This document shows positions 9,141 through 35,886 of a stretch of DNA of 41,766 nt, piece after piece. How positions within the stretch are numbered: the first letter of the stretch is position 1; each line of letters starts with the position of its first letter. The stretch spans positions 1-41,766 of the forward strand of contig NZ_BCWD01000019.1 in assembly GCF_001592085.1 (NCBI RefSeq). Reading direction: 5' to 3'. Origin of the DNA: Levilactobacillus senmaizukei DSM 21775 = NBRC 103853. GTDB lineage: Bacteria > Bacillota > Bacilli > Lactobacillales > Lactobacillaceae. Below the pieces are notes generated by a model, which saw nothing but the letters and a program-made list of their open reading frames with translations, had not been told where the DNA came from and searched no databases. The translations under genes were made by a program, and so were the position numbers.

Positions 9141-11081
9141 TTAGTTTTCGCGACTGTAAGAGGCAATATCACTCAGAATTTCCTTAACGAAGGCATCGCT
9201 GCTCATTGATTCGCTGTCTTCTTCACCATACTTACGAACGGAGACGGATCCATTCTTCATTTCATCCTCACCAACAACCAAGGTGTATGGAATCTTGTGA
9301 GTTTGGGCATCTCGAATCAGGTAACCCATCTTTTCACCACGTTTGTCCACATCAACCCGTACATCGGCGGCCTTTAATTCGGCAGCTAACTTGTCGGCGT
9401 AAGCCCCATGCTTCTCTTCAGAAACAGGAATGATCGTGACTTGCTTAGGGGCTAACCAAGTTGGGAAGGCACCCTTGTAAATTTCGGTCAGGTAAGCGGT
9501 GAACCGTTCCATCGTTGAAACCAAACCACGGTGAATCATAACTGGACGATGTTCTTCACCATCGGCGCCCACGTAGTGCAGGTCAAACCGTTCTGGCAAC
9601 ATGAAGTCCAATTGGATAGTTGACAACGTTTCTTCATTCCCAAGGGCCGTCTTGGTTTGGACGTCCAACTTAGGACCGTAGAAGGCAGCTTCCCCTTCGG
9701 CTTCAACGTATGGTAAGCCAAGGTCATCCATGGCACCCTTTAACATCCTTTGCGCGTTGTTCCACATTTCATCGTCATCGAAATACTTTTCGGTATTCTT
9801 AGGATCCCGGTAACTCAAGCGGAACGTGTAATCCTTGATGTCGAAGTCATTGTAAACCTTAACCATCAGGTCCAAAATACTCTTGAATTCGTCTTGGATT
9901 TGTTCTGGGGCAACGAACGTGTGACCATCATTCAAGGTCATTTCACGAACACGTTGCAAACCACTTAAGGCACCAGACTTTTCGTAACGGTGCATCATCC
10001 CTAATTCAGCGATCCGCAATGGTAATTCACGGTAAGACCGGATGTGGTGGTTGTAAATTTGAATGTGACTTGGGCAGTTCATTGGGCGTAATTCAAGTTG
10101 TTCGCCATCACCCATGTCCATTGGTGGGAACATGTCATCACGATAGTGGGCCCAGTGACCCGATTGTTTGTACAGATCCAGGTTAGCTAAGACTGGGGTG
10201 TAAACGTGTTGGTAACCGTTATTAACTTCCTTGTCGATAATGTAACGTTCAATCGTACGACGAATGGTTGCCCCATTTGGCATCCAGTAAGGTAAGCCGG
10301 CACCGACCTTAGGGTCGACGAAGAACAGATCCAATTGGTTCCCGATAACCCGGTGATCACGTTCACGAGCTTCTTGACGCTTAGCCAAATCGGCATCCAA
10401 GTCGGCTTGCTTGTAGAAGGCCGTCCCATAAATCCGTTGTAGCATTGGGTTAGAGGACTTCCCTTGCCAGTAAGCACCAGCAACGGAGAGCAACTTGAAC
10501 TTCTTAACATCACCGGTGTTAACTAATTGGGCACCATCGCTCAAGACTTGGTAGTCACCAATCTTCAGGAATGGAACGGCATCACCATCGATGGCATTAA
10601 CTAATTCAGTGCTGAATGGGTCACCCTTAACAGCCGCTAAGGCGTCAGCCTTGCTCAATGAGATCCGGTCAATGGCTAACTTGTCGCTAACCAACTTTTC
10701 AACCACAACGGCCAAGGCATCGAGTTCGTCGACACTAACTTGTTGGTCGTCCTTGTCGGTGTCAACGAAGAAACCGTCGGCGTCGGCACTAACTTCCCCT
10801 AAGCGAATAGCTGGGAATTCCTTCTTCAGAGCAATCCGTAACAATGCGGCCACCGTGTTCCGCAGAACCGCCAAGCCATCATCACTGTCCTTAGTGACGA
10901 TTTCGATACTACCATCGCCAGCCAGTGGTGCCAGGTAGTCGACTAATTTGCCGTCTAACTTAGCTGCAACGGCCTTTTTAGCCAAGCTAATTGAAATAGA
11001 TTTAGCGACATCTTCTGCCGTCGTGTCTGCTGGAAAAGCCTTAACTTTGCCATCAGGGAACTTAATTGAAATATCTGCCAT
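9141..11081 (-). CDS. thrS: Threonyl-tRNA synthetase with degenerate editing site
   Basis: Class II synthetase charging tRNA-Thr; 646 aa. Domains in order: TGS (about 1-62), N2 editing domain (about 65-240), catalytic core (about 240-535) and anticodon-binding domain (about 540-646). The core is intact: RPMNCPSH supplies the zinc Cys, and FYGPKLD and [12 protein letters not shown] are present. In the editing domain the usual HSxAH motif reads N75-T-V-A-A79, and the usual CRGPH motif reads S181-D-G-A-Q185. All four residues used to hydrolyse Ser-tRNA-Thr are therefore replaced. The gene stands alone behind a T-box leader and its own promoter, so it responds to uncharged tRNA-Thr. Confidence 0.97.
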
Positions 11082-11121: not shown

Positions 11122-11156
11122 AAAAAAGTCCCCAGTGTCATCTAGACACTGGGGAC
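11122..11156 (-). terminator. T-box terminator of the thrS leader
   Basis: GTCCCCAGTGTC, loop TAGAT-like, GACACTGGGGAC, then six T on the minus strand: a perfect 12-bp stem. Confidence 0.9.
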
Positions 11157-11372
11157 GTCAATAACGTGGTTCCACCCGATATTTATCACGAGACTATGCC
11201 CGTGAACTCAACTCGTTGATAACGGAACGAACCGGCCAAGAATTTCCTCTCGACAGCTAAGAAAGTGGTAATGTCGGTGGCTGCTAAGTCGGCTTCCAAG
11301 CTAGGCCAACTCTTCCTGTAAACAGACTCACTAACATTGTGTCTTTCGTCTAAGCTCTTACTAAGTTTCTAC
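11122..11372 (-). ncRNA. T-box leader of thrS
   Basis: The roughly 250-nt leader between the promoter and thrS ends with the T-box sequence GGTGGAACCACG (minus strand, around 11165-11176), then a terminator. This is the standard arrangement in which uncharged tRNA stabilises an antiterminator. Threonine specificity is inferred from the downstream gene; I could not place the specifier codon with confidence. Confidence 0.9.
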
Positions 11373-33173: not shown

Positions 33174-35603
33174 TTAGTTAGCAACAATGTTAACCAATTT
33201 ACCAGGCACCACAATCACCTTACGAACGGTCTTGCCCTCAGTGTGGGTTTGAACCGTTTCGTCAGCTAATGCGGTCGCTTCGATTTCGTCCTTGGCAGCA
33301 TCCTTGGCAACCTTCAGGTGAGCTCGAACCTTACCGTTAACCTGAACCACCATCTCAACCACGTCTTCGACTAATTGCTTTTCGTCGTAAGTTGGCCATT
33401 TAGCGTAGGCGATACTGTCATCATGGCCCATTAATGACCAGAGTTCTTCGGCAATATGGGGCACGATTGGTGAGATCATCTTGACGAAGCCTTCCATGTA
33501 AATTAACGGCAGACTATCAGCCTTATATGCTTCGTTCACGAAGACCATCAATTGTGAAATGGCCACGTTAAACCGCATGCCTTCCAGGTCTTCGCTCACG
33601 GTCTTAACGGTCTGGTTGTAAATCTTATCCAGTGACCCATCGTTAATCATTGTCACCCGATCACGTAAATGGTTGTTATCGTCGATCAAGAGCCGCCATA
33701 CCCGGTCTAACCAACGCCGAGAACCATTGATTCCTTCGGTACTCCAGGGTTTCGAAGCTTCCAAAGGCCCCATGAACATTTCGTAGAGACGCAGCGTGTC
33801 GGCCCCATCCTTTTCAACAATTTCATCGGGATTAATGACATTCCCCTTAGACTTGGACATCTTTTCATGGTTCGTTCCCAAGATCATCCCTTGGTTAACC
33901 AACTTCTGGAAAGGCTCCTTGGTAGGAACAACGCCAAGATCGTAGAGGAACTTGTGCCAGAACCGCGCGTACAGCAGATGCAAAACGGCATGTTCCGCCC
34001 CACCAATGTATAGGTCAACTGGCATCCAGTACTTCAGTTTGTCGGCATCGGCAATGGCGTCAGGATTGTGGGGATCAATGTAACGCAAGAAGTACCAAGA
34101 ACTTCCGGCCCATTGTGGCATGGTGTTCGTTTCACGCTTTCCTTTACGCCCGTTCTCATCGACAACGTTGACCCAGTCATCCAGGTTCGCTAATGGACTC
34201 TCACCGGTACCAGAGGGCTCCAATTGCTTAGCTGCTGGTAGCTTCAAAGGTAATTGGTCTTCGGGAACCAGTGTGGTTTCACCATCTTCCCAGTGAATAA
34301 CGGGAATGGGTTCACCCCAGTAACGTTGACGAGAGAAGATCCAGTCACGCAAGCGGAAGTTAACTTGCTTGTGGCCAGCATCGTGTTCTTCTAACCAGTC
34401 GATGGCCTTCTTGATGGCATCCTGCTTATTCAATCCGTTAAGGAAGTCAGAGTTGATATGTTCCCCGTCTTCGGTATACGCAGCTGTTTGAACATCCGTA
34501 TCATCATCGCCGGCAATCACTTGGACGATTGGTAAATGAAACTTCTGCGCAAATTCGTTGTCACGGTCGTCATGACCTGGAACCGCCATGATGGCACCAG
34601 TCCCGTACGAAGCCAAGACGTAATCACCAATCCAAATCGGTAATTTCTTCCCATTAATTGGGTTAATCCCGTAGGCCCCGGTGAAGACCCCAGTCTTGTC
34701 CTTGTTCAAATCGGTCCGTTCCAGATCCGACTTGCTCTCGATAGCTGCTTGGTAAGCCTTGACGGCATCGGCCTGTTCTGGCGTGGTAATGGTCTTAACC
34801 GCCGCATGCTCGGGTGCCAGAACCATGTAGGTTGCCCCATATAACGTATCGGGACGCGTCGTGTAAACCTCGATCTTGGTATCCTCTTGCCCAGCGACCG
34901 GGAAGAAGACACTAGCGCCTTCGGAACGACCGATCCAGTTACGTTGCATTTCTTTGATACTTTCGGGCCAGTCCAGATCATCCAGGTCATCAATCAACCG
35001 GTCGGCGTAGGCCGTGATCCGTAGAACCCACTGTCGCATTGGGACACGGTATACGGGGTAACCCCCACGTTCGGTCTTACCATCAACAACTTCTTCGTTA
35101 GCCACAACGGTCCCACCCATGAAGTCGGGGGCCCAGTTAACCATGATTTTGTCTTCGTAGGCCAAGCCCTTTTTGTAAAGCTGTTCGAAGATCCATTGCG
35201 TCCATTTGTAATAAGATTCATCAGTCGTGTTAACCTCACGACTCCAGTCATAGGAAAAACCCAGTGACTTAATTTGCCGCTTAAAGTTCTTGATATTATG
35301 CGCGGTAAAGTCCTTAGGGTTGTGTCCCGTCTTCAAGGCGTACTGTTCGGCTGGTAAACCGAAGGCATCCCACCCCATTGGGTGTAAGACGTTGAACCCT
35401 TGCATTCGCTTCAAACGGGCCATGATATCGGTTGCCGTGTAGCCTTCTGGGTGTCCCACGTGAAGCCCCTGTCCAGATGGGTAAGGGAACATGTCTAAGA
35501 CGTAATACTTAGGTTTGCTCTGGGAATCGCTGGTCTTGAAGGTTTCATTTACCCGCCAGAAATGTTGCCATTTACGTTCAATTATGTCGTGATTATAGGC
35601 CAA
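33174..35603 (-). CDS. leuS: Leucyl-tRNA synthetase
   Basis: Class I synthetase charging tRNA-Leu, 809 aa. The HIGH-type motif is [17 protein letters not shown] and the KMSKS loop is [12 protein letters not shown]. The CP1 editing domain keeps its Thr-rich motif ([19 protein letters not shown]) and the catalytic Asp block ([15 protein letters not shown]), so editing looks intact, unlike thrS. The gene is monocistronic, with a T-box leader and its own promoter. The ATG has an AAGGAGCGATG-type ribosome binding site. Confidence 0.97.
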
Positions 35604-35640: not shown

Positions 35641-35886
35641 AAAAAAAGCCCCCAGAAGTCCAAAATTCGACTTCTGCAGGGCGTCGTGACGCGGTACCAC
35701 CTACATTTCCCTAGTCGTATCCTAGGGCTCATTCCAGCTGATAACGTCGCCAAACGCCCACCTTGCGGCAGAAAAGGCTCCAAGACAAGTTCGTGAGCTA
35801 GGATAACGGATTCACAGCAACCATCCGCTTACTGAATACCTTCGCACACTACTACTTCTTATCAACGCCTTAAACTTAATTAGATG
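35641..35886 (-). ncRNA. T-box leader of leuS
   Basis: The leader ends with GGTGGTACCGCG (35690-35701, minus strand), the canonical T-box sequence, followed by a terminator with loop and seven T (35641-35682). Leucine specificity is inferred from leuS; I did not fix the specifier codon. The roughly 400-nt gap upstream of leuS is filled by this leader and by the divergent promoters for leuS and the PAP2 gene. Confidence 0.9.

Follow-up and report, generated by a model that had tools for sequence, protein, structure and literature searches.

The threonyl-tRNA synthetase (ThrRS) encoded in the window, by which we mean the whole 41,766-nucleotide stretch of Levilactobacillus senmaizukei DNA analysed here, has lost all four residues on which bacterial ThrRS rely to edit Ser-tRNA(Thr). 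Judged from sequence, its N2 domain would be a folded pseudo-editing domain, catalytically dead and kept for structure or tRNA binding, a reading to which we assign a probability of about 0.8. Most of the family Lactobacillaceae shares this loss of the editing site, which is not peculiar to the window enzyme.

The thrS product scored 648.7 bits against the NCBIfam model TIGR00418 (curated cut-off 383.65), which identifies it as a bacterial ThrRS, and the nearest named relative, among the best 80 of 571 confirmed ones, is Levilactobacillus tangyuanensis (99%). The features of the window that matter here are the following:

9141..11081, minus strand: thrS, threonyl-tRNA synthetase, 646 aa (open reading frame and TIGR00418)
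10893..11069, minus strand: TGS (N1) domain, aa 5-63 (Pfam PF02824)
10413..10886, minus strand: N2 (editing-type) domain, aa 66-223, approximate limits (fold predicted, catalytic residues gone)
10845..10859, minus strand: N75-T-V-A-A79, at the position of HSxxH (E. coli H73, H77; alignment)
10527..10541, minus strand: S181-D-G-A-Q185, at the position of CRGPH (E. coli C182, H186; alignment)
9477..10355, minus strand: class II catalytic core, aa 243-535 (approximate), zinc ligands C336, H387 and H517 (Pfam PF00587 and column table)
9159..9476, minus strand: anticodon-binding domain, aa 536-641 (approximate; Pfam PF03129)
11148..11361, minus strand: T-box-like leader upstream of thrS (60.6 bits, below the Rfam gathering score of 93)
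33174..35603, minus strand: leuS, internal control, CP1 editing motifs retained (TIGR00396 and motifs)

A T-box leader was also detected upstream of leuS (35674-35874, minus strand, 96.7 bits).

The initial annotation had proposed that the four editing residues were replaced between 10520 and 10870, and both altered motifs indeed lie within this interval. N75, A79, S181 and Q185 align to the His, His, Cys and His of the S. aureus (1nyq) and E. coli (1qf6) ThrRS sequences; the alignment is gapless around the first motif and from the second motif to GAYW. An editing-competent ThrRS carries residues of the HSxxH and CxGxH types, where the window enzyme reads NTVAA and SDGAQ. Counting from the N-terminus, His appears for the first time at residue 243 and Cys at residue 336; residues 1-242 hold neither, and no shifted register can therefore bring a His or Cys to the four positions. 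In E. coli, H73, H77, C182 and H186 are reported to be critical to editing, with kcat decreased 7000-fold in H73A, 70-fold in H186A and more than 500-fold in C182A/S, and the C182A/S enzyme mischarges Ser (PMC4041444).

The alignment was extended to 225 rows, of which 215 were distinct after 10 identical ones had been dropped; ThrRS rows added late stand outside the conservation and rate counts. At the four editing columns, 79 distinct rows have His, His, Cys and His (intact), 118 have lost the site and 18 have His, His, Asp and Leu (hereafter HHDL). The first His is retained in 4 of the 118 lost rows, and the second His, the Cys and the last His in none. Seven further positions of the pocket (G97, P98, I100, Y106, K157, Q174 and D179) hardly vary among intact rows but are occupied by diverse residues in lost rows.

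Despite these changes, the N2 fold is present in the predicted structure of the window enzyme, whose modelled N-terminal part is 43% identical to S. aureus 1nyq and 30% to E. coli 1qf6, and N2 hardly varies in length across the lost rows: none of the 118 lacks more than 3 positions or has more than 6 inserted when compared with the window. TGS is mostly missing in seven of these rows, from Limosilactobacillus, Paucilactobacillus and close genomes (L069, L072, L077, L078, L106, L118, L122). At equal core distance, the ratio of N2 to core distance was 4.87, 3.57 and 2.89 for lost rows compared to 2.17, 1.84 and 1.67 for intact Bacilli; scaled to the core, the rate of N2 in lost rows is about double that in intact relatives. 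The median dN/dS of N2 in lost pairs was 0.244 and the maximum 0.640, below 1. For core distances of 0.05-0.12, lost and intact values were respectively 0.476 and 0.189 for N2, 0.440 and 0.306 for TGS, and 0.383 and 0.297 for the anticodon domain; dN relative to core dN was 4.36 and 1.60 for N2, 4.58 and 2.50 for TGS, and 3.48 and 2.58 for the anticodon domain, all these rates coming from pairs that are not independent, with saturated pairs dropped. Relaxation thus reaches beyond N2, the TGS and anticodon domains being raised as well. The window ThrRS combines the loss of editing residues with relaxed constraint on N2, the pairing that characterizes naturally editing-deficient synthetases. Its N2 would accordingly still fold and stay under purifying selection but should not hydrolyse Ser-tRNA(Thr); it may have been retained because it assists folding of the enzyme and keeps the acceptor end of the tRNA in place during aminoacylation, and evidence from yeast indicates that the N-terminal part of ThrRS supports aminoacylation (PMC4267643).

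The initial annotation had also suggested counting the loss among relatives. In an order-wide draw of 295 genomes (50 Lactobacillaceae and 245 from eight other families), all 50 Lactobacillaceae could be read: 42 have lost the site (41 lack all four residues and one retains the first His), seven are HHDL and one, which groups with the named Periweissella fabalis, is intact. By contrast, all genes read outside the family are intact, namely 42 of 42 in the eight other families (from 42 of the 245 genomes, every family being covered) and 48 of 48 in the rest of the phylum (from 47 of the 168 other genomes of the phylum draw). The phylum genes came from the matches listed; six genomes with weak matches were tried, one of which gave a readable, intact gene and five (G420, G464, G476, G524, G533) only fragments or paralogues. 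In the named set, made of the best 80 of the 571 confirmed relatives, the site is lost in 79, with all four residues absent from 75 and the first His retained in four (three Furfurilactobacillus and one Dellaglioa); these 79 include Levilactobacillus, Lactiplantibacillus, Lacticaseibacillus, Lentilactobacillus, Limosilactobacillus, Ligilactobacillus, Pediococcus and Companilactobacillus, and the sole intact member is the ThrRS of P. fabalis. Seventeen further ThrRS, picked by genus and hence not a random sample, comprised 12 HHDL, two lost and three intact enzymes. The loss, found in every lactobacillus and pediococcus read, would date from the root of Lactobacillus sensu lato or close to it, and the remaining pocket would have decayed afterwards.

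Ser-tRNA(Thr) would then not be cleared by the window ThrRS, and serine at threonine codons would depend on the synthetic site, EF-Tu and other factors. Threonine identity would now rest on the zinc-based synthetic site and on whatever pre-transfer hydrolysis it has, so that threonine codons would be expected to carry serine at a raised background level. Serine mischarging by the window enzyme is a prediction; pre-transfer editing, tighter rejection of serine by the synthetic site or a further hydrolase may forestall or correct it. In yeast, the editing-dead ths1-C268A allele is reported to raise serine misincorporation more than 15-fold and to cause heat sensitivity, and its authors conclude that a defect in editing does not suffice for the latter unless aminoacylation is reduced too (PMC10602869). 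By analogy, this result fits with the tolerance of editing loss when aminoacylation is retained.

That fidelity was kept in spite of the loss, the synthetic site rejecting serine or destroying Ser-AMP so that little Ser-tRNA(Thr) forms and no mistranslation phenotype appears, is possible, but we hold it to be on the unlikely side. Precedents exist: the yeast mitochondrial ThrRS, which has no editing domain, shows tRNA-dependent pre-transfer editing, yet it is reported to mischarge serine nonetheless (PMC4267643), and a 2024 review describes ProRS and mitochondrial PheRS in which loss of the editing domain accompanies higher specificity (PMC11415595). In the synthetic site, the zinc ligands C336, H387 and H517 do not vary among the tabulated rows. 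M334, R365, E367, D385, Y468, Q490 and R526 are shared by every one of the 118 lost and the 75 intact rows, and K471 by every lost row and 73 of the 75 intact ones, whereas position 383 is Leu in every lost row and Leu or Gln in intact rows. The tabulated positions presumably include threonine-contacting residues, and their near identity in lost and intact rows counts against this reading of retained fidelity. It should be noted, however, that 12 core columns are fixed differently in Lactobacillaceae compared to 35 intact Bacilli rows, and that six of them cluster in residues 330-348 (10038-10094, minus strand), around the zinc ligand C336. These changes could tighten serine rejection, and one may speculate that they made the loss of editing tolerable. 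Five of the six are, however, shared with the editing-intact Periweissella; the changes in 330-348 therefore preceded the loss of editing or arose without it.

We consider it improbable that a hydrolase acting in trans (a YbaK-type protein, DTD, AlaRS or a member of another family) clears Ser-tRNA(Thr). The genome does encode candidates. It has a YbaK-type protein, which together with the ProRS insertion makes up its tRNA_edit family, and one DTD-family protein with SQFTL and GP, which we take to be the functional motifs of that family; moreover, deacylases of the INS family are reported to act on errors of several synthetases, ThrRS included (PMC11415595). But by TIGR00011 the YbaK-type protein is a Cys-tRNA(Pro) deacylase, and exactly two tRNA_edit matches were found in 38 of 46 Lactobacillaceae genomes, as in the Periweissella-type genome G270 whose ThrRS is intact; three or four were found in the other eight. 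Free-standing AlaX-like proteins are encoded in at least three Lactobacillaceae genomes (L185, 502-975; L186, 160-870; L187, 796-1905), and none was found in the window genome. The search for a free-standing homologue of the ThrRS editing domain, also suggested initially, was carried out in this genome and returned none: tRNA_SAD occurs in AlaRS and ThrRS only, and the archaeal-type ThrRS-ed model (PF08915), which matched 3 of 14 controls, gave no match. Among the matches listed for 111 Lactobacillaceae genomes, no genome had more than two to tRNA_SAD. A second ThrRS as supplier of editing was rejected for the window genome, the thrS model search yielding the window gene as the single match above cut-off and no other ThrRS; among those listed for the 111 family genomes there was no extra intact ThrRS.

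A general decay of fidelity was rejected for four other synthetases of the same genome, which retain what we take to be their editing motifs: TTTPWT and GTGLVHTAPGLGEDD in IleRS, TTRPET and GTGMVKITPAHDPND in ValRS, TTRPDT and the second motif in LeuRS, and HTATH and CGGNH in AlaRS. PheRS is full length. The LeuRS of the window thus keeps its editing site, as first observed. Taken together, the residues missing in the right register, the fold predicted to be retained and the absence of the hydrolases sought in this genome support the initial interpretation of a lost editing site.

The window enzyme resembles the E. coli and S. aureus ThrRS by its TGS-N2-core-anticodon domain order, its fold, its zinc site and its conserved core, and differs from them by the absence of the four catalytic residues and of much of the pocket. 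The family is largely free-living and industrially used. Natural editing deficiency has been described for synthetases of Mycoplasma, microsporidia and mitochondria (PMC7373986, PMC10057733, PMC11415595, PMC4267643), and according to reviews free-living bacteria retain editing, its loss being found mainly in bacteria that are host-restricted or parasitic (PMC10057733, PMC11415595). The ThrRS, PheRS and LeuRS of Mycoplasma, whose degenerate editing domains were described by Li et al. 2011 (via the reviews PMC7373986 and PMC10057733), likewise lost editing residues naturally in otherwise working synthetases. However, these are host parasites with reduced genomes, whereas the 42 lost Lactobacillaceae genomes of the order draw, many of them of food or plant origin, measure 1.3-3.0 Mb and the loss extends across most of a family. 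The yeast mitochondrial enzyme MST1 also threonylates without post-transfer editing, with pre-transfer editing of its own (PMC4267643), but there the whole domain is absent, whereas the window ThrRS keeps it near full length. In contrast to the archaeal split ThrRS with a free ThrRS-ed, no free-standing editing protein was found in the window genome. The mitoribosomal protein that resembles the N-terminal half of ThrRS, presumably mL39, differs in being no longer part of a synthetase. Among the literature matches listed, titles and abstract openings gave no precedent for the loss of ThrRS editing in lactobacilli; the survey of editing domains published by Melnikov et al. in PNAS in 2018 may already include these genomes. 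If the proposed loss of activity is true, lactobacilli would be a clear exception to the rule that free-living bacteria keep editing, with the LeuRS, IleRS, ValRS and AlaRS motifs retained, and free-living life with a noisy codon family would be directly testable in species that are harmless and genetically tractable. The sequence fidelity of recombinant proteins produced in lactobacilli would be concerned as well.

The HHDL enzymes form a different case. Both His of the first motif and most of the pocket are retained in 18 of 18 distinct rows, including the equivalent of E. coli H73, whose loss costs editing most. In all 18, Cys is replaced by Asp, the last His by Leu and Tyr172 by Ala, and Asp179 is Glu in 16 of 19 rows (identical rows included). 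The second motif reads D[RK]GGL in place of CRGxH in six genera (L126, L133, L135-L139, L170-L179, L188, L189), which by elimination would include Leuconostoc, Weissella, Oenococcus and Fructobacillus. The N2 to core distance ratio of these enzymes (2.40, 1.49 and 1.33) corresponds to the normal rate, which suggests a working or repurposed editing site, and such an altered but conserved site would test whether the editing Cys is replaceable. It makes editing with a different set of residues conceivable in this clade. For the window enzyme we regard that as very improbable, its N2 containing no His or Cys and evolving under relaxed constraint, and the four positions as well as the seven further pocket positions varying among genera of its clade. 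An error of register that overlooked a nearby His and Cys found no support, has a practically negligible probability and was rejected on the positions of the first His and Cys and on the gapless flanks of both motifs, the structural match being read as ranges and the gene start and assembly being taken as correct.

Hydrogen peroxide is made by lactic acid bacteria, and the other families of the order include further members of this group. It is reported to inactivate C182 of E. coli ThrRS (PMC4041444); a carboxylate, Asp, in place of the editing Cys would resist it. One could thus imagine two independent answers to an oxidant-sensitive Cys, Lactobacillus sensu lato having dropped proofreading and accepted a proteome 'statistical' for Thr and Ser, and the HHDL clade having rebuilt a Cys-free, peroxide-proof and still-editing site, but we find this scenario distinctly doubtful. 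In particular, the link of both fates to one oxidant cause is weak, since the other families of the order keep the Cys in 42 of 42 genes read.

In a quick tree of the core only, the family was supported at 100, a clade A joining Periweissella and the HHDL rows at 92 and a clade B of all lost rows at 96, and parsimony on the core tree required two changes. In a more careful tree of 42 rows, clade A was recovered (96/90), the HHDL rows formed one poorly supported branch (37/3), and the lost rows were not resolved as one clade, leaving the base of B open. The N2 of Periweissella is nearest to that of the HHDL clade (mean identity 0.705, and 0.645 to other families of the order). The intact site of Periweissella is therefore probably its own, and horizontal replacement of that N2 is not favoured. 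The HHDL change and the loss in clade B were therefore probably separate events, although an AU test did not reject the grouping of all non-intact rows in one clade (p 0.234), and hence a single loss. Genus g84, with the HHDL rows L176 and L177, has a very long ThrRS core branch (1.21 and 0.93 changes per column in these trees), and a genome of the same genus (G306) has four tRNA_edit matches.
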